DNA of 64,000 bases from Saccharothrix deserti (lineage in GTDB: Bacteria > Actinomycetota > Actinomycetes > Mycobacteriales > Pseudonocardiaceae). The first letter of the stretch is position 1, and each line of letters begins with the position of its first letter. The DNA is taken from contig NZ_VKAB01000012.1 of NCBI RefSeq assembly GCF_009769385.1, positions 62,001-126,000 on the forward strand, read 5' to 3'. Under the pieces are notes generated by a model. That model saw only the letters and a program-made list of their open reading frames with translations, had not been told where the DNA came from and did not search any database. The translations under genes and the position numbers were made by a program. Positions 1 through 10,006 of the stretch are shown piece after piece.

Positions 1-312
1 AAGAGCGGGGACGGCTCGCGCGTCCGCCACCGGGTTCAGAGCGGCCAACACCTCCTCGGGGAAGACCCGTTCATCCTTCAGCAGAAGCGCCGCGCACAAG
101 AGCGGCACCGCCTCCCCCGAAGGTTTTCGCTGTGCGGCGAGCACGTACAACTCGAACCCGTCCCAATCCTCGCGCGCGAAGGTGTGTTCCAACCCCTCGA
201 CGATGCACCGCTCGTCCCCGTCCGACACCTCCACCGACCGCAGCCGTTCGAGGAGGTCGACGCTTCCATCGCGGAGCGCCCGGTCGAAGTCCCGGCAGTC
301 GACATCAGTCAT
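1..312 (-). CDS. Probable immunity protein for the Rhs toxin (partial, C-terminus outside window)
   Basis: An open minus-strand frame starts at ATG 312 and runs off the window edge, giving 104 residues (MTDVDCRDFDRALRDGSV...). Its start overlaps the stop of the Rhs toxin gene in the arrangement ATGACTGA, an 8-base overlap that implies translational coupling. The visible part is acidic, soluble and helix-rich (e.g. VDLLERLRSVEV, EAVPLLCAALLLKDE), reminiscent of HEAT-like or all-alpha immunity proteins; no family is recognised. Position directly after a polymorphic toxin is the classical place for a cognate immunity gene, so the function is inferred from context only. The frame carries no stop within the window. 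Confidence 0.72.
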   Translation of the reverse strand, partial: MTDVDCRDFDRALRDGSVDLLERLRSVEVSDGDERCIVEGLEHTFAREDWDGFELYVLAAQRKPSGEAVPLLCAALLLKDERVFPEEVLAALNPVADARAVPAL

Positions 313-3300
313 CGAGCTTCCCCACCACTCCCCAATCGAGGATCCCCGAGTTGAAGACCTTGACCGAGCCCCTGCGGAGCCCGTAGTTCAAGTGACCACC
401 TTCGGATTTCATGTGCACCTGGTTCCGCCCTGCTCGCCCTTTGGCCAGGACGGGCAGGCCGCCGAGTCCTGCTGCCGCGATACCCGCCGAGATGACCCCG
501 TCGCGGGCGCCGACCGCGAGCAGCGCATCACGCGTCCCGGGCTTGACGTCGAACCGGATCAGGTGATCGTAGGTGTACTGGTCATTTCCATTGGCCGCTG
601 CCTGCGCGGCGAGTCCGATGATGTAGTCGACGCTTTGCGTGACGAACGACTCACCGTACTTCGGCCAGAGCTTGCCTTTGGAACCTTCGAGGAACTCCAG
701 TTCCGCCGTCGAGACTCCCCGGTAGAAGGTCTCACAAGCGCCGCCGGCTGATGCGTTGGGAGCAGAGTTGTGCGTGAGTACCGCGGCCGCGCCGGCGCCC
801 ACGAAGTACGTGTGCAGGCCGTCGACGGTGAGGTTGTGGACCTCGCGGTCCGGGGAGAACGGGCGGGTGCCGGTGACGGTGGCCGGGCGGTGGTCTGCGG
901 TTTCGAAGGTGTAACCGGGCTCGAGGTCCTTGGCGTGGACCCACTTCTGCAGGGACTCGACCCAGAACGGGTGTTCGTCGGTGGCTACCAGGTTGTCCGC
1001 GCCGTCGACGGTGATCTCGTAGAGCAGGCGCTCCGCCTGGTGCGAGCGGGTGTCGGTGACGGTGCGCGGGCCGGTTTCGCCGGTGGTCGGGTCGGTGGAC
1101 AGGACCTGGTCGCCCACCGCGACGCCGGCGATCGGCTTGCGACTCCCGTCCGCCATGAGGACCGGGGTGTCGCCGGAGAAGCTGTTGGAGTCGTAGGACA
1201 CCCGGCAGGACGCGCCACCGGCCGCTTCCCCCTTGGCCTGCTTGCCCTTGGTGCCGGGCGACTTCTTCTTGCGGCCGCCGAGGTCCATCAGGTTCTCGGC
1301 GTACGGGATGCCGGACGTCGCCAGGACTTCCGACACCTGGGCCTGCGCCGCTTCCTTGATCACTTCCTTGCCGGCGCCGAGCATCGCCGTCTTGATCGTC
1401 TCGTAGACCTTGTTCAGGTCCTGCACGTTCGTCACGGTCGCCTGCACGATGCGGGCGGGTGCGTTGGGAACGGCGGAGACGATGTTCTTGGCGTTGGCGA
1501 TCCGGGGCTTCAACGCCGCCTGCATCGTGGGCAGCGGGTTGTTCTTGACCGCCTTGGCCACGGCGGCCTTGGCGGCGGACGTGCGGGCGATCGCCGCCTG
1601 GAGTGCCGCACGGGCCGCGGCGGCTCGGCGGGCCGCCGCTTCGGCCGCCAGCTTGCGCGCGTCCGGCACGGCCTTGCTCGTGGACGGGACGCCGTTGCTC
1701 TTCTTGATCGGCACGCCGTCCGGGCCCCGGACGTTCTTCGGGGTCGAGTAGTCCGGGGTGCGGCCACTCGGCGCGTCGGGGGTGCGCGGGGTCGGCACGT
1801 TGTCCGCGCCGCGCACCGCGTCGTAGCCCCGGTTGCCCCACTTGGCGGCGGTGGCGCCCCAGCCGGCGAACGGCACCATGCCCGCGAACGACAGGCCCGC
1901 GTCCACGTAGTTGCCCTCGGCCAGGTACCAGGCGCCGTTGATGCCGTCGGCGATCTCGCCGATGCCCGGGACCAGTCCCGCGACGTCGAGTGCCGTGTGG
2001 CCGATCGTGCTGATGTTGTCGCCGACCCAGCTCACCGCGTCGGAGAACCAGCCGTGGCCGTCCGGGTCGAAGCCGTTGAGCGGGGAGCCGACGCCGTAGA
2101 GGTAGCGGTTGTAGCCGGCCGAGCCGGGACCGCCCCGGGTGACCGAGTCACGGCTGCTGAACGTGCCCGTGGCCGGGTCGTACCAGCGGGCACCCATGTT
2201 GACGCGGCCGGTGTCCGGGTCGGTCCAGTCGCCCTGGAAGCCGACGTTGCGCTTCGTGCCGACGTCCGCGGTCCGGTTGCCCCACGGGTCGTAGGCGGTC
2301 GAGTCCGGCAGGGACGTCAGCGTTGTCGCGGGGTCGAACCCGCCCACCACGTCGCCGTGCTTGTCCGACAGCAGCAGTCGCTTGTCGGCGCCCTGCGCGA
2401 GTGAGAGCAGCTCGCCCGACAGCCCGCGGCCGTAGGTGGCCGTGCCGTCGCTGACCGCGTCGATCTCCGCGCCGGCGTAGCGGAACGCCTGCGCGCCGCG
2501 CGTCACCGGCCGGTCGAGACCGTCGTAGGCGTAGGACGTCGCGCCGACCTGGATCAGGCGGTCGAAGGCGTCGAAGGAGAAGTTCTCCTGGTAGCCCGAG
2601 CTGGTGCGCGACGCCAACGTGCCGCGTGCCGTGTACTGGTAGGTGTAGTCGCCGTCGGACAGCACGCGGTTGCGCTCGTCGTACACGGCCGTCTTCGCGC
2701 CGTTGCGCACGCGGTTGCCCGACGCGTCCCACCCGTACTCGGTGGTGGCGCCGTTCGCCGTCCACGACGTGGTCCGGCCGAGGTGGTCGTAGGCGTAGGT
2801 CTGCTCGCCCGCGCCCGCCGTGCCGGTGGAGACCTTCTTGGTCAACCGGTCGTTCGGGTCGTAGGTGTAGGCGATCGACGCCGCGATCGCGCCGGCGGCG
2901 TTCTTGGTGACGTCGGAGACCTCGCGGCCGAGGTCGTCGTAGCCGAACTCGCGGACCCGGCCCGCGCCGTAGTCCATCGTGCCCAGCCGACCGGACGGGG
3001 TGTAGCCGAACCCGATCGACCCCCCGGTCACGCCGTCCCGCACGGTGGCGAGGCGGCCTGACGCGTAGGAGAACCCGCTGGTGCCCGACGCGTCGGTGCG
3101 CGACACCAGACGGCCCTGCTCGTCGTAGTCGAACGTGGCGTCACCGGACGGGCCGGTGGCCGAGAGCAGCAGGCCGCGGGCGTTGTAGCCGTAGGTGTTG
3201 GTGCCGCCGGGCGCGCTGACGGCGGTGGTGCGGCCGACCGCGTCGTACCGGACCTCGCGGTCGGTGGTGGCGGCCGAGGCTCCCGCGCCGGTCTCCTTCA

Positions 3301-6300
3301 CCATGCGGCCGAGTGCGTCGTAGGTCAGGTTGCGGGTCACGCCGCCGGGCGCGGACAGGACCGTCGGGCGGCCGCTGCCGTCGTAGGCGGCGGTCCACGT
3401 GCGGTCCGCGGCCGTCGGGTGGGCGGCGGTGGCGGGCTCGACGACCGACTCGGGCTTGCCCAGCGCGTTGTAGGTGTAGACGGTGGTGTTGCCGCGACCG
3501 TCGGTGAACCGCGTCCGCCTGTTGGAGGTGTCGTAGCCGTAGGACGTGGTGATCGACTCGGTGTCCGACACCGGCTCGACCAGCTGCGTGAGCCTGCCCA
3601 GGGTGTCGTGGGTGTACCGGGTGGTGCGGTTCATCGGGTCGACCGACGTGAGCCGGTTGCCCACCAGGTCGTAGGTGTGCCGGACCGTGCGGAGGGTCCG
3701 GTCGGCCGCGTCGAGGTCGAGCTCGGCGACCTGGTTGCCCGCCCGGTCGAGCTTCACGTAGTGCGCCCGGCCCTCGGCGTCCCGGGCGAAGACCTGGTTG
3801 CCGAAGCTGTCGTACCCGAAGCGGGTGACGACGCCCGCGGGGTCGGTCACGCTGGTGCGCTGGCCCAGCGCGTCGTAGCCGTACCGGGTGACGTCGCCCT
3901 TCGGCGAGGTGGTGGTCTCCAGGTTGCCGGCGGCGTCGTAGGCGAACTTCGTCTCGTGCGCCGCCGGGGTCGGCCGCAGTTCGACGGCGGTCTCGGTGAG
4001 CGGCCGGCCGAACTGGTCGTAGGTGCGCCGCACCTCGCCCAGCGTCGGGTCGGTCGACGACAGCAACTCGTTGGCGTGGGTGTAGCTGTACCGCCAGCTG
4101 CCACCGGGCTCACCCGGCGCGTCCGGCTTCGGGTCCTGCTTCTCGACCACGCGTCCGCGCTGGTCGTAGAACATCCGGACGACCGCGCCGCCCGGGTCCG
4201 TGGTCCTGGTGACCCGGCCCATCGCGTCGTACTCGGCCCGCACGGTCGCGACCAGCGGCGACGAGGCGCCGGGCGCCTGGTAGCCGGGCGATTCGGTGAG
4301 GGTGGTCCGACCGGCCCGGTCGTAGCCGAGCTTCATCACGCCGCCCGCCGGGTTGCGGATCTCGGTGACCTCGCCGAACGCGTTGTAGCCGGTGGTCGTG
4401 GTCGGCCGGGTCACGGTCGCGGCCTGCCCGTTCTCCTCCGCGCTCACGGGCGGCGAGACGACGGCCGTGGTGCGCCCGCGCTCGTCGTAGCGGTACTCCG
4501 TGGTGTGGTCGGCGGCCACGCCGCCGGTCGCGTTGCCCAGCGGCGCCACGACCTTGGTGACCAGGTCGCGCTGGTCGTAGCTGGTGCGGGTGACGACCGG
4601 GCCGGTGGTGCCCTGGAGCGCCTCCTTGACCTGGCGGCCGGCCAGGTCGTACTCGAAGTCGACGACCTCGGCGAACGACGCGCTGAACGGCCCGGTGCCG
4701 GAGTGGGCACCGCTGCGGGCGACCCGGGTGACGTTGCCGCTGAGGTCGTAGCGGTACTCGGTGCGCCGGCGCAGGGTCTCCGGTTCCCGGGTGGTGGCGA
4801 CCAGCCGTCCGGTGGCGTCCACCTCGTGGGTGACGACCGTGCCGCCGAGGCCGACCCGGCGGACCAGGTTCCCCGCGGCGTCGTAGGTGTTGTGCTGGAC
4901 GAGCAGGGCCTGCGTCTCCGGCTTGTTGTCCGCCCTCGCCCGGATCTCGCGGACCAGGCCGTCGCCGTAGTAGGAGAAGGTGGTGCGACGCCCCATGGCG
5001 TCGGCCTGCACCACGAGCCGGCCCGCGTGGTCGTACTGGTTGGACTCCAGCACCAGGTCGGGCAGTGGTGTCTCCGGGTCGGACGGCGGCACGTCGGTGG
5101 CGCCGGGCGTGATCGCCTTGCCGTGCCAGCCGACGAGCCGCACCTGGGCGACCTTGTTGCGCGCGGTGTAGGTCCAGGTGGTCTTCACGCCGTTGGCGTC
5201 GACGGCCCACGTGCGGTTGCCGAACTGGTCGTAGCCGAACGACGCCTCGTTGCCCTCGGGACCGACCGCCCGGCTCATCCGGCCGCGGTCGTCGAACTCG
5301 AACGTCGAGGTGCGCGGACTGCCCGGGTCGGCCAGGTCGACCACCTCGGCCTTGGTGGTGTTGCCGTCCTGGTCGTACTCGGTGGTCTCGCGCTCGGTGC
5401 GGGAGACACCGGTGACCGCGTTGGTGGCGGCCGGGTAGGTCACCTCGACTACGCGGCTCAGCGCGTCGTACCGGTACGTGGTGCGCACGCCCGCCGGGTG
5501 CGCGTCGGAGTACTCGGTCGCGGTCAGCTTGCGGCCCAGCGCGTCGTAGGTGAACGCGGTGCGCAGACCGGACGGCGACAGCGTCTCGGCCAGGTCGCCG
5601 TTGCTGTGGTACCGGTTGACGGTCGTCGCGCCGCGCGGGTCGGTGGTGGACTTCAGCAGCCGCGCCGGCTCCTTGCCGCCGCCGACCGCGTCGGACGTGC
5701 CGTCGGTGTAGCTGTGGAACGTCGAGCCGCCGTCCGGGTTGGTCTCCTTCGCCAGGTCGCCGAAGTCGGTGTACTCGGACGTGGTCAGGTAGGTGTTGTC
5801 GGTCGGACCGGACGACCGCGCGTCGCGGACGGCGACCAGCTTGTCGGTGCGCGGGTCCGTCGGGTCTGCCGTCGCCGGGTGGTACTCGTGGTAGGTGGTC
5901 TGGCAGCTGTCCTCGCTGCGGCACGTGGTCTTGCGGGTGAGGTTGCCGCGGTCGTCGTGCACGAGGGTGGCCTTGTTGCCCTCCTCGTCCACGACCGTGG
6001 TCTGGAAGCCCGACTCGTCGTAGTCGTACAGCCGCACGCCGAGGCTCACCACGAGCCCGTTGCAGGTGACGATGCCGTCCGCGTTGGTGGTGCAGTCACG
6101 GCCGACGACGTCCTCGGGGCGCGGTCCCGTGCCGATCGGCGTGACCTGCCGCAGGATGCGGCCCTTGAGGCCGTCGAAGTCGTAGTAGTGCGCCCGGCCG
6201 CCCGGGTCGGCGACGCGGACGGAGCGGATGACGTTGGTCTCGGAGCCGCCGACCGTGGGGACGCCGAGCTGCCAGCGACCGCCGTCGCCGTCGACGTACT

Positions 6301-9300
6301 CCTTCATCCGGTCGTGCAAGCCGTCGTAGGTCACCTCGGCGGCGACCCTCATGCTCGGCATGGTCACCTTGGTGACCTGGTCGCCCGCCTCGCGGGCGCG
6401 GTGGTGCGCGGCGACCTGGTTCGGACCCAGCGGCCGGGCGTACACGGCGAGCTCGTCGACGAACCCGGCCAGGGAGGTGCGCCCGCTGCCGATCCCCGGG
6501 AACGACCCGACCGAGTGGGCGGCGCCGACCTGCGCGAACTCCAGGCGCGGGTGGTCGATCACGCCGTCGCGGGTGCCGACCGCGACGCCGTCGAGGTACA
6601 GCGTCTGGGTGGCCAGCGAGCCGGACAGCACCACGTGGTGCCACTTGTCGTCGTTGACGGCACCGGAGCTGGTGATCGGGTCGACCACGCCGGTGCCGAA
6701 CTGGCCGCGCAGCTTGCCGTCCGAGCCGATGTAGAGCAGCGGGGCGCCCGCGCCGGGGGTCTCGCCCAGCGGCTTGTCCTGGTAGCCGACGAGCGGGCCC
6801 GCCGACGTGGTGCGGAACCACAGCTCCACCGCGAGGTCGCGGTGCTTGTTCAGGGCGCGGTCGGGCAGCGCGATGTGGGCGCTGCCGTTCAGCTCGGCCG
6901 AGCGGTCGTCGCTGCCGACCAGGGCGCCCGGCCTGCCGTGGTTGTTCGGGCCGAAGCCGACGAACCGGCCCATGTCCTTGCCCAGCTTGACGCCGATCTG
7001 GCTGTTGGCGTCCGCGCCGCCCGCCTCACCGAGCCGCCAGTAGGAGTCCGGGCGCGAGTCGAGCACGACGCTGCGGTAGTGCGAGCCGTTGTCGTACTGG
7101 TAGCGGGTGCACTGCCCGTCCGGGTTGCACGCCTCCAGCAGCCGGTGCGCGTCGTAGCGGTAGACCCAGGTCAGCGCTTTCCCGTCCACCGGGTCGGTCT
7201 TGACCTCGACGACGTGGCCGTTCTCCCAGCGGAAGAACAGGGTGCGGTTGCTGGTGCGGCTGATCGCCTTCCACAGGCGGCCCTCGATGTTGTGCACCAG
7301 TTCGACGAGGCGTCCCGCGCTGTCGCGGACGGACTTCAGCACGCCGTCGAAGCGGAACGTGTAGACCGTGCGGTCCTTGTCGACCAGCCGCCAGCCGCCG
7401 CCCTCGCCTTCGGGGAACTCGGTGAGGGTGGCGGAACGACCGGGCGGCGGGGTGTAGCTGCCGTCGGGGTTGCGGCCGAAGCGGACCTGCTGGCCGTCGG
7501 GGTAGGTGGCCACGACGTTACCCGAACCATCACTGTCCGTGATGATCTTCATGTCGTAGCGTGACGACCAGCCGGTGCCGAACGCCAGGTCCTGGCGCGG
7601 GTCGAGGCTGTTGTACGTGCGCGCGACGTTCAGCTCGGGCCCGACGGTGGCGGCCGTGGCGTCCACCGCGGCCGTCGTGAAGTTGCCGACCATCGGGTCG
7701 AAACCCAGGCCGTTGCCGGTGTACGGGGCGTTGCCGAGGCGCGAGGTGACCTCCGGCTGCGGCACCGACGTGAGCAGCGCCGAGAACGGCAGGCCCTCGC
7801 TCTCCGACTGGCCGTCCCACAGCCAGGTGCGCCACAGGTAGACCTTGTCCCAGTGCAGCTTCCCCGCGGGCAGCGTCCAGTACACGTTCGGCTGGCGGCC
7901 GGAGTCGAAGCAGGACACCGGGTTGCCGAGGCCGTCCTTCTCGCACACCTCGAAGCGGTACTGCAGCGGGTCGTTCTCGTGGTCCTGTCCCTTGGCCCAC
8001 AGCTGCGGGCGCAGCGTCTCCACGCTGTGTCCCGCCGGCGGGTACTGCTCGCCGACGACCGGCGGGATGTTGAAGATCTGGAGGGTGATGCGGGCCGGCG
8101 CGACCTGTTCGTCGGTGAACATCAGGCCGTTGTGCCGCATGGAGAAGTCCAGGACGTACACGCCCTGGTCGCGCTTCTCGACGACCGCGTCGAGCGTGAC
8201 CTCCTGGCCGGGCGCGACGTCGTGCGGCAGGCCCGCCGAGCGCACGGTGGCCAGCTGCGCGTTGGTGTTGGCGTCGAACAGCTTGTAGGCCAGGTCGTAG
8301 GAGGACGCGGTCCACGTGGTCGCGCCCGTGTTCGCGACCTTGATCTTCACCACGCCGTCCTGCACGCGGGTGACCGGCGGGTTCGGGATCGGCTGCTCGA
8401 CGGTGTACCGCGCGTCGTACGGGCTGTGCGTGACGTACAGCTTCGGCGGGTTCGCCGAGTTGCCGCCGGTGAACTTCTTGAACCCGCCGGTGGTGGCGTT
8501 GTCCGAGGCGCGCAGCGCGAGCCCGTTGTTCACCCCGCCGTTGACCCAGTCCTGCACCAGCTGCTGGCCGCCGATGCCGAGGTCGATCAGCTCTCCCGCG
8601 GCGGGACACGCGGAGCGGGTCTGGCCGAGGGCGATGAAGCCGTGCGAGAACGAGGCTCCCGCGATCGGCGCGCCGACGGCGGGCGCGCCCGCGACCGACC
8701 ACGGCTGGGCGACCGGGTGCACGGTCAGCGGCCGGGGCGCGCAGGTGTTCGAGTCGAAGTTCACCACGTGCAGCGCCGCGCCGAAGATCTTGTGGTTGCG
8801 CAGGCGGGACACCACGTCCGGGAACGCGACGTAGGAGCTGTTCACCGCGCCGCCGTTGAGGCCGATGCGCAGCTCGCTCGGGTTGTTCACCTTCGTGCCG
8901 CCGGCGACGTACATGCTCTGCGTGCCGCGGCCCTCGAACACGCTCGGGTCGACCAGCACCGGGTAGACGCGCGCCGGGTCGTCCAGCCACGCGCCGTCGA
9001 GCGCGACCCGCAGCGTGCCGCCGCCGTCGACCAGCTCGTAGCGCACGCCGTGCGAGGTGGCCGGGGTTTCCGGCGCGGAGTCGACCATGTAGCCGGTCGG
9101 GATGCGCATCCGCTCGGCGCCGGAACCGTCCACGAGGGAGACGGCGCCGTCGTCCGCGAGCTTCGCGGTGAGACCCTTGAGCCGCAACGGGAAGTCCCAC
9201 GTGCGGGGTGCCGTGCGGTCCCGCAGGACCACGGTTTCCTTGGCGCCGCCCGGCACGGATTCGACTCGCAGGTCGGTCTGGTCGGCCACGCCCTCGTAGG

Positions 9301-10006
9301 TGGCGGTGGCGCCGTCGACCCGGCCCGCGACGTCACGCGCGCCGCGCAGGCCGTAGGCCAGTTCGTGCTCCTCGTCGAGCCGCACGCGCACCAGGTCGCC
9401 GGCCGCGGCCGACCACCCGAGGCGCACGTCGACCTGGTCGGCGCGGTTGTGCCAGCCGTCGCCGTCGCCGTCGACGACACCGACCAGGGCGGGGTCGATC
9501 GGGGCCCAGCCGCCGTCGGGGAGCCGGTAGTTGACCGGGGTGTTGCTGAACTCGGTGGTGCGGGTGCCGTCGGTGTTGCGGTAGGTGCGCTCGTTGCGGC
9601 CCCGGTCGGCGGGCACTTCGGTGCTGGTGGCCGCGTCGAAGCCGGTGGGGTTCGGGGAGACGTCAACGACCCGCGCCTCGTTGCGCGCGGCGTCGGAGGG
9701 CTGTTTGAACTCGGGCCGCGCGTACTTGGACTGCTCGGAGACCGGCATGCCCCAGTTGCCGTCGCGGCTGTCGGTCGAGTCGGGCAGCCCGTCGGCGCTG
9801 CCCCACTCCTGGTCCGCGGCCATGTCCCGGGCGCGGTCGAGGCGTTCGGAGAGCTCCGCGGTGTCCTCACCGCCGCCGCCCGACCAGGGAGCCCAGTCGA
9901 AGTTCGGGCCCGCGACCCCCACGACCAAGGTGGTCGTGAGGAACAAACCCAGTAGCGGCACCAGGAATCTGGGCGCGCGGAAGCGCGCGGCGCGACGGCC
10001 GACCAT
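305..10006 (-). CDS. Rhs/YD-repeat polymorphic toxin with LamG, Hint and C-terminal toxin domains
   Basis: A 3,233-residue exported giant. Residues 1-45 hold a basic N-terminus and one hydrophobic segment (LVPLLGLFLTTTLVVGVAG), a signal or anchor. About 360-530 is a DNRLRE-like region, about 975-1200 a LamG/concanavalin-like domain (DSYWRLGE, ELWFRT, GFVDELAVYARPL), and about 1200-2500 contains dozens of YD repeats (YDxxGR/N). The Rhs core (GARWYDPATGTFSSRDS) lies near 2575-2600, followed by a hydrophobic pretoxin region and an Ala-rich helix. A Hint autoprocessing domain starts near 2935 (SFSGDTPVLMADGS) and ends near 3078 with VLTHNS. The last ~150 residues (CETFYRGVSTAELEFL, GESFVTQS, DVKPGTRDALLAVGA) resemble ADP-ribosyltransferase-type toxins, with YRG as a possible NAD-binding arginine; that fold call is inference. 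A good ribosome site (GGGGGAGAT) precedes ATG 10006. The shell probably encloses the toxin and Hint releases it into rival cells. Confidence 0.93.
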   Translation of the reverse strand: MVGRRAARFRAPRFLVPLLGLFLTTTLVVGVAGPNFDWAPWSGGGGEDTAELSERLDRARDMAADQEWGSADGLPDSTDSRDGNWGMPVSEQSKYARPEFKQPSDAARNEARVVDVSPNPTGFDAATSTEVPADRGRNERTYRNTDGTRTTEFSNTPVNYRLPDGGWAPIDPALVGVVDGDGDGWHNRADQVDVRLGWSAAAGDLVRVRLDEEHELAYGLRGARDVAGRVDGATATYEGVADQTDLRVESVPGGAKETVVLRDRTAPRTWDFPLRLKGLTAKLADDGAVSLVDGSGAERMRIPTGYMVDSAPETPATSHGVRYELVDGGGTLRVALDGAWLDDPARVYPVLVDPSVFEGRGTQSMYVAGGTKVNNPSELRIGLNGGAVNSSYVAFPDVVSRLRNHKIFGAALHVVNFDSNTCAPRPLTVHPVAQPWSVAGAPAVGAPIAGASFSHGFIALGQTRSACPAAGELIDLGIGGQQLVQDWVNGGVNNGLALRASDNATTGGFKKFTGGNSANPPKLYVTHSPYDARYTVEQPIPNPPVTRVQDGVVKIKVANTGATTWTASSYDLAYKLFDANTNAQLATVRSAGLPHDVAPGQEVTLDAVVEKRDQGVYVLDFSMRHNGLMFTDEQVAPARITLQIFNIPPVVGEQYPPAGHSVETLRPQLWAKGQDHENDPLQYRFEVCEKDGLGNPVSCFDSGRQPNVYWTLPAGKLHWDKVYLWRTWLWDGQSESEGLPFSALLTSVPQPEVTSRLGNAPYTGNGLGFDPMVGNFTTAAVDATAATVGPELNVARTYNSLDPRQDLAFGTGWSSRYDMKIITDSDGSGNVVATYPDGQQVRFGRNPDGSYTPPPGRSATLTEFPEGEGGGWRLVDKDRTVYTFRFDGVLKSVRDSAGRLVELVHNIEGRLWKAISRTSNRTLFFRWENGHVVEVKTDPVDGKALTWVYRYDAHRLLEACNPDGQCTRYQYDNGSHYRSVVLDSRPDSYWRLGEAGGADANSQIGVKLGKDMGRFVGFGPNNHGRPGALVGSDDRSAELNGSAHIALPDRALNKHRDLAVELWFRTTSAGPLVGYQDKPLGETPGAGAPLLYIGSDGKLRGQFGTGVVDPITSSGAVNDDKWHHVVLSGSLATQTLYLDGVAVGTRDGVIDHPRLEFAQVGAAHSVGSFPGIGSGRTSLAGFVDELAVYARPLGPNQVAAHHRAREAGDQVTKVTMPSMRVAAEVTYDGLHDRMKEYVDGDGGRWQLGVPTVGGSETNVIRSVRVADPGGRAHYYDFDGLKGRILRQVTPIGTGPRPEDVVGRDCTTNADGIVTCNGLVVSLGVRLYDYDESGFQTTVVDEEGNKATLVHDDRGNLTRKTTCRSEDSCQTTYHEYHPATADPTDPRTDKLVAVRDARSSGPTDNTYLTTSEYTDFGDLAKETNPDGGSTFHSYTDGTSDAVGGGKEPARLLKSTTDPRGATTVNRYHSNGDLAETLSPSGLRTAFTYDALGRKLTATEYSDAHPAGVRTTYRYDALSRVVEVTYPAATNAVTGVSRTERETTEYDQDGNTTKAEVVDLADPGSPRTSTFEFDDRGRMSRAVGPEGNEASFGYDQFGNRTWAVDANGVKTTWTYTARNKVAQVRLVGWHGKAITPGATDVPPSDPETPLPDLVLESNQYDHAGRLVVQADAMGRRTTFSYYGDGLVREIRARADNKPETQALLVQHNTYDAAGNLVRRVGLGGTVVTHEVDATGRLVATTREPETLRRRTEYRYDLSGNVTRVARSGAHSGTGPFSASFAEVVDFEYDLAGRQVKEALQGTTGPVVTRTSYDQRDLVTKVVAPLGNATGGVAADHTTEYRYDERGRTTAVVSPPVSAEENGQAATVTRPTTTTGYNAFGEVTEIRNPAGGVMKLGYDRAGRTTLTESPGYQAPGASSPLVATVRAEYDAMGRVTRTTDPGGAVVRMFYDQRGRVVEKQDPKPDAPGEPGGSWRYSYTHANELLSSTDPTLGEVRRTYDQFGRPLTETAVELRPTPAAHETKFAYDAAGNLETTTSPKGDVTRYGYDALGQRTSVTDPAGVVTRFGYDSFGNQVFARDAEGRAHYVKLDRAGNQVAELDLDAADRTLRTVRHTYDLVGNRLTSVDPMNRTTRYTHDTLGRLTQLVEPVSDTESITTSYGYDTSNRRTRFTDGRGNTTVYTYNALGKPESVVEPATAAHPTAADRTWTAAYDGSGRPTVLSAPGGVTRNLTYDALGRMVKETGAGASAATTDREVRYDAVGRTTAVSAPGGTNTYGYNARGLLLSATGPSGDATFDYDEQGRLVSRTDASGTSGFSYASGRLATVRDGVTGGSIGFGYTPSGRLGTMDYGAGRVREFGYDDLGREVSDVTKNAAGAIAASIAYTYDPNDRLTKKVSTGTAGAGEQTYAYDHLGRTTSWTANGATTEYGWDASGNRVRNGAKTAVYDERNRVLSDGDYTYQYTARGTLASRTSSGYQENFSFDAFDRLIQVGATSYAYDGLDRPVTRGAQAFRYAGAEIDAVSDGTATYGRGLSGELLSLAQGADKRLLLSDKHGDVVGGFDPATTLTSLPDSTAYDPWGNRTADVGTKRNVGFQGDWTDPDTGRVNMGARWYDPATGTFSSRDSVTRGGPGSAGYNRYLYGVGSPLNGFDPDGHGWFSDAVSWVGDNISTIGHTALDVAGLVPGIGEIADGINGAWYLAEGNYVDAGLSFAGMVPFAGWGATAAKWGNRGYDAVRGADNVPTPRTPDAPSGRTPDYSTPKNVRGPDGVPIKKSNGVPSTSKAVPDARKLAAEAAARRAAAARAALQAAIARTSAAKAAVAKAVKNNPLPTMQAALKPRIANAKNIVSAVPNAPARIVQATVTNVQDLNKVYETIKTAMLGAGKEVIKEAAQAQVSEVLATSGIPYAENLMDLGGRKKKSPGTKGKQAKGEAAGGASCRVSYDSNSFSGDTPVLMADGSRKPIAGVAVGDQVLSTDPTTGETGPRTVTDTRSHQAERLLYEITVDGADNLVATDEHPFWVESLQKWVHAKDLEPGYTFETADHRPATVTGTRPFSPDREVHNLTVDGLHTYFVGAGAAAVLTHNSAPNASAGGACETFYRGVSTAELEFLEGSKGKLWPKYGESFVTQSVDYIIGLAAQAAANGNDQYTYDHLIRFDVKPGTRDALLAVGARDGVISAGIAAAGLGGLPVLAKGRAGRNQVHMKSEGGHLNYGLRRGSVKVFNSGILDWGVVGKLDD

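Follow-up and report, generated by a model that had tools for sequence, protein, structure and literature searches.

Among the closest described systems are RhsP2 of Pseudomonas aeruginosa with its antidote RhsI2 (PDB 7RT7) and RhsF of Chromobacterium violaceum with its antidote RhsFi, and both toxins are T6SS effectors of Gram-negative bacteria (PMC13324451). According to that paper, RhsP2 was the only RNA-modifying Rhs tip for which an R-Y-E triad was on record before RhsF. RhsP2 uses R1490, Y1524 and E1576 together with K1574 for RNA binding (PMC12340436), and RhsF, which carries a FIX domain, modifies RNA in vitro (PMC13324451). Both antidotes neutralise by occluding the active site (RhsI2, PMC11833690; RhsFi, PMC13324451), and RhsFi is a 12 kDa protein of six helices that the accessible portion of its description does not present as HEAT repeats. 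The actinomycete ADP-ribosyltransferase ScARP of Streptomyces coelicolor marks guanosine in RNA (PMC11833690); it has an R-S-E triad (PMC13324451) and modifies a base, not the ribose. Zhang et al. 2012 described the Tox-ART families RSE, PARP, HYE1, HYD1 and HYD2. These ADP-ribosyltransferases form the tips of polymorphic toxins, some of which contain RHS and HINT, and the available tables give Imm41, ADP-ribosyl glycohydrolase and Imm-My6CBD as partners, with neither an R-Y-E triad nor a HEAT immunity protein among the entries (PMC3482391). The same source describes Imm-HEAT, HEAT-repeat immunity proteins adjoining polymorphic toxins, which its available part pairs with Tox-REase-7 and Ntox34 and with no listed ADP-ribosyltransferase (PMC3482391).

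The locus described here lies at one end of the window, the 64,000-nucleotide stretch of the Saccharothrix deserti genome that was analysed. It probably encodes a polymorphic toxin composed of an Rhs shell, a Hint module and a 153-residue RhsP2-type ADP-ribosyltransferase directed against RNA, together with a HEAT-type immunity protein. By predicted fold and active site, the tip is a distant member of the RhsP2 toxin family, but it shares 28% identity with RhsP2 over the structural alignment, sits on a Hint-carrying Rhs protein of a soil actinomycete and is followed by a HEAT-type immunity protein. Like RhsF it is an Rhs tip with an R-Y-E triad, a likeness drawn from description and not from sequence, whereas T6SS delivery, the FIX domain and the six-helix antidote set RhsF apart. 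Like ScARP it comes from an actinomycete, but it has R-Y-E in place of R-S-E, and ScARP was not among the best 50 Foldseek or best 50 VIA matches of the tip, an absence that does not speak against kinship. The pairing of an ADP-ribosyltransferase tip with HEAT-type immunity also departs from the Tox-ART and Imm-HEAT pairings listed above. Searches of the open-licence literature turned up no description of HEAT immunity paired with an RhsP2-like toxin, and one may be in print elsewhere. The genes and domains of the locus are as follows.

305..10006, minus strand: Rhs polymorphic toxin gene, 3,233 codons (ORF list, Pfam, NCBIfam)
9908..10006, minus strand: residues 1-33, basic then hydrophobic, by eye resembling a secretion signal or anchor (inference from sequence)
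7478..7699, minus strand: DUF6531, residues 770-843 (Pfam, E 8.2e-12)
6410..6889, minus strand: Laminin_G_3, a concanavalin-like lectin domain, residues 1040-1199 (Pfam, E 1.4e-17)
2054..2293, minus strand: Rhs-associated core (Rhs_assc_core), residues 2572-2651 (NCBIfam, E 7.7e-16)
764..1156, minus strand: PT-HINT module, residues 2951-3081, with LTHN at 3077-3080 (Pfam, E 1.5e-16)
308..766, minus strand: toxin tip, residues 3081-3233, predicted RhsP2-type ADP-ribosyltransferase fold (family, profile and fold matches, conserved residues)
1..312, minus strand: immunity gene, first 104 of 161 codons, predicted HEAT-type solenoid (ORF, fold and profile evidence)

The toxin gene opens with ATG, and its 3,233-residue product contains both Rhs/YD repeats and the Rhs-associated core (Pfam, NCBIfam), the RHS_repeat family matching in 23 stretches (Pfam, E 1.8e-98); by the Pfam boundaries PT-HINT directly precedes the tip. 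Since a frame of this length carries Rhs and Hint domains, and since the tip and the downstream protein both have families, the finding is not a product of chance. The original prediction of a 3,233-residue Rhs protein with a Hint module was thus borne out, and the order of Rhs, Hint, toxin and immunity that it proposed is supported by the domain layout and the adjoining immunity family. In 10 of 11 same-genus loci a Cys lies seven residues ahead of the NSF of the Hint start and the module ends in HN (L028-L036 and L053, with the window counted in the 10 of 11; L054 does not match), and in L018, L024 and L026 the Cys lies three residues ahead of NSF. A divergent gene with tachylectin repeats (window:10282-13104, plus strand, start by eye; PF14517, E 4.6e-48) points away from the Rhs gene and possibly encodes a secreted lectin.

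One backbone carries different tips in the host genus. The 521 residues ahead of the junction, used as a query, gave matches in 25 of 25 genomes of the genus, many of them covering the Hint or short parts alone; among the matches listed, the backbone is near full length at 11 places in 9 of the 25 genomes, own included. The window tip occurs in 1 of the 25, at one place. The closest backbone among the matches listed (L029, in G001) agrees with that of the window in 442 of 503 columns up to the junction and then runs into a different tip and a different downstream gene. The change point is LTHN, and the L029 tip carries a GCGHCAEGN motif, which we take to be deaminase-like.

The tip starts after LTHN and contains YRG at 3095, FVTQS at 3121 and DVKPGTRDALL at 3153, so that all three motifs of the original prediction were located; its length of about 150 residues also stood, and the range it gave (3080-3233) shifts to 3081-3233. 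FVTQS and DVKPGTRDALL are signatures of the family, and the residues matching the RhsP2 triad lie elsewhere. No Pfam or NCBIfam family could be assigned to the tip. As a single-sequence query, it gave zero matches in the protein collection, one genome scan, the plasmids and the phages, a result that we count against our explanation. It matched 4 of 99 genomes (own included): the host, G025, with a relative 58% identical and broken in frame, and G053, with a decayed relative; the match in G079 was rejected as spurious. The immunity-protein query matched 6 of the same 99 genomes, own included, and led in G030 to a locus (L018) where an Rhs-Hint protein has a distant tip and its gene overlaps a HEAT gene by 4 bases. 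Compared with the PDB, the L018 tip matched the toxin domain of RhsP2 (E 4.3e-21).

Alignments used as queries widened the family. Three tips retrieved 16 proteins, and seven tips retrieved 8 loci in named records, five of them in Streptomyces and one each in Streptoalloteichus, Solirubrobacter and a Solirubrobacteraceae MAG. With 18 tips, matches came from 9 of 390 genomes of the host family, Pseudonocardiaceae, own and decayed ones included. The family comprises tips from Streptomyces, Solirubrobacter, Actinoplanes, Streptacidiphilus and several Pseudonocardiaceae, and a Micromonospora tip with Lys in place of the Glu. The tip frame is broken in 3 of 16 loci read (L007/L020, L008 and L067/L069). 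On the strand opposite to its broken RhsP2-like tip, the Streptoalloteichus contig has a second Rhs end (L007:2-1056); the tip there is a different one, and a further small, repeat-like protein comes after it. What looks like the end of an Rhs gene, with an RhsP2-like tip, is contained in a 1.7 kb record (L071:1001-1372) whose label, Salmonella phage (unverified), may be wrong. On a Cronobacter condimenti plasmid, an RhsP2-like tip with a broken frame is covered by annotations of hypothetical proteins (L072:2183-3354).

Structure-based and profile searches of the tip both led to RhsP2. Among the best 50 Foldseek and best 50 VIA matches, the predicted ADP-ribosyltransferase fold is closest to RhsP2, and the profile match to RhsP2 supports the same assignment. 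Consequently, the ADP-ribosyltransferase-like nature first suspected for the tip is supported by fold, profile and a conserved R-Y-K-x-E set, and the evidence supports RhsP2, an RNA-modifying enzyme, as its closest known toxin. The codons of the corresponding residues are the following.

719..721, minus strand: R3096, aligned with RhsP2 R1490 (alignments; role in RhsP2, PMC12340436)
569..571, minus strand: Y3146, aligned with RhsP2 Y1524 (alignments)
407..409, minus strand: K3200, placed against RhsP2 K1574 of RNA binding (alignment and spacing; PMC12340436)
401..403, minus strand: E3202, placed against catalytic E1576 of RhsP2 (alignment and spacing; other alignments differ)

In a 31-row alignment, R3096 is present in all 20 rows that reach it, Y3146 in 29/29, E3119 in 28/28, K3200 in 31/31, E3202 in 30/31 and H3198 in 28/31, the sole exception at E3202 being P0020, with Lys instead. 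This alignment takes in L071 and leaves out L072, and two of its rows are non-independent, P0009 being the same gene as L020. R3096 and Y3146 align plainly with the RhsP2 triad; the register of the Glu is weaker. In three alignments (two profile, one MAFFT; one at low confidence) the RhsP2 Glu falls near V3197-M3199, and in these neither its Glu nor that of L018 stands opposite E3202. The RhsP2-like sequences L071 and L072, which have a short hairpin, keep the spacing of the window: K-x-E, six residues, then G-L or Q-L. Because of the 31-row alignment and this spacing, we take K3200-x-E3202 to correspond to K1574-x-E1576 of RhsP2; H3198 is a less likely stand-in for the RhsP2 Glu.

The immunity gene starts at 312 and overlaps the toxin gene by 8 bases ATGACTGA. 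The original prediction had placed its start within the toxin stop codon; the overlap stands, with the start codon immediately ahead of the stop codon. The remainder of the gene continues beyond the window on the same contig (L002:9827-10312, in a 10.8 Mb genome of 162 contigs), giving a complete frame of 161 codons. Its acidic product, at first of no recognised family, is by fold matches a predicted HEAT-type solenoid with HEAT repeats. No chain of 7RT7 appeared among its sequence matches or the best 50 of each fold search, RhsI2 itself standing outside this comparison. The HEAT immunity gene also occurs, with the tip absent, in two same-genus genomes, as one start-less copy and one shortened copy (L016:5207-5590 and L017:6739-7155).

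The pairing of tip and following gene, proposed in the original prediction, was examined by running a profile against all frames of at least 60 codons; the seven immunity proteins that make up the profile come from outside the tested loci. The 13 test loci (L018, L021-L027, L062, L063, L064, L066 and L067) comprise 966 frames; the window, L007/L020 and L008 were kept out, being in the profile or the same gene, and L069 is the same place as L067. The profile gave 13 matches below E 1e-4, one per locus (13/13; the weakest, 9.1e-5, in L024), each in the next gene after the tip, which in L067 follows the second piece of the broken tip. Among the 597 frames of 17 Rhs control loci from the host's genus it gave none. 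That these controls bear other tips follows from the tip search described above, and for 14 also from reading, with L044, L054 and L055 resting on the search. The pairing is supported by this contrast, and the protein, with HEAT repeats and a gene beside a polymorphic toxin tip (13/13 loci), has the features by which Imm-HEAT is defined. Since it is encoded just behind the tip in each of 13 related loci, the HEAT-type protein is very probably the antidote. Note that the profile's fourteenth match, above that threshold (E 0.0067), is a shorter immunity-like frame upstream of the broken tip in L067 (L067:1709-2026, minus strand), perhaps a decayed second copy.

A mechanism can be proposed from these observations and from RhsP2. 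The Rhs protein would be secreted, its Hint module probably cutting the tip free of the shell, and the toxin and immunity genes would be co-transcribed. In the cytoplasm of a competitor, the likely reaction is the ADP-ribosylation of structured RNA, a substrate suggested by analogy with RhsP2: R3096 and Y3146 would hold NAD+, E3202 would drive the transfer of ADP-ribose, and K3200 beside it would position the nucleic-acid backbone. The acidic HEAT-type protein would bind the tip, probably covering its active site, and such occlusion is the most likely mode of neutralisation since both RhsI2 and RhsFi act in this way.

The choice of RNA as substrate is where this proposal meets its main rival, that the tip ADP-ribosylates a protein, as do ParT and diphtheria toxin, which we judge unlikely. 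The triad alone does not decide for RNA, since EcPltA, which modifies protein, is given the residues R9, Y67 and E118 (PMC13324451). We count this against an RNA target, along with the weakly basic character of the tip (pI 7.8) and the fact that, of the six-residue cationic surface of RhsP2, the K1574 equivalent alone is universal in the tip family. The window tip has a basic loop (K3189, R3191, R3194) whose residues some relatives lack. That the tip might instead destroy NAD+ as a glycohydrolase, without transferring ADP-ribose, seems to us quite improbable. The Tne2 and RES toxins are NAD glycohydrolases, and in the fold search they stand nine to ten Z units below RhsP2; furthermore, the tyrosine and the K-x-E of the tip match the transferase RhsP2.

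HEAT repeats are general protein-binding scaffolds, and the HEAT protein could accordingly serve the tip as a chaperone or as an adaptor for loading instead of being its antidote. We give this little probability, because the gene tracks the tip across the tested and control loci and because its frame is open in the three loci with a broken tip frame, which fits an antidote that has been retained. These decayed relatives also raise the thought that the window tip is itself an inactive remnant, which is highly improbable: its frame is open up to the stop, equivalents of the RhsP2 triad and Lys are all present, and the immunity gene is complete and overlaps the toxin gene.

Delivery and protection of the producer bear on how far the RhsP2 parallel extends. 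No match to the VipA or Hcp family was found in the assembly, and the same searches were positive in an E. coli control; judged by these two parts, T6SS delivery is not what this genome presents, and the kinship of the tip to RhsP2 is independent of delivery. The host genome contains one microbial-type PARG (G000:C2:361896-362315, PF10021, E 3.9e-49). PARGs of Streptomyces coelicolor and Deinococcus radiodurans remove the mark of RhsP2 and protect E. coli (PMC11833690), and the host enzyme may be a second, enzymatic guard against RNA ADP-ribosylation. We put forward, at slightly below even chances, the wider reading that a family of actinomycete R-Y-E tips acts against structured RNA, on secreted Rhs proteins without a T6SS, the producers being guarded by a dedicated family of HEAT-type antidotes unrelated to RhsI2, with PARG perhaps a second guard.

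If these tips modify RNA, the range of such weapons extends to the soil bacteria that produce antibiotics, among which ScARP is already at work on guanosine in RNA. HEAT-type immunity would be joined to a new class of toxin, and a set of hypothetical proteins would gain a function. The PARG enzymes of actinomycetes have been called functionally enigmatic (PMC11833690), and an RhsP2-type attacker within the PARG bearers' own group would make a protective role of PARG directly testable.
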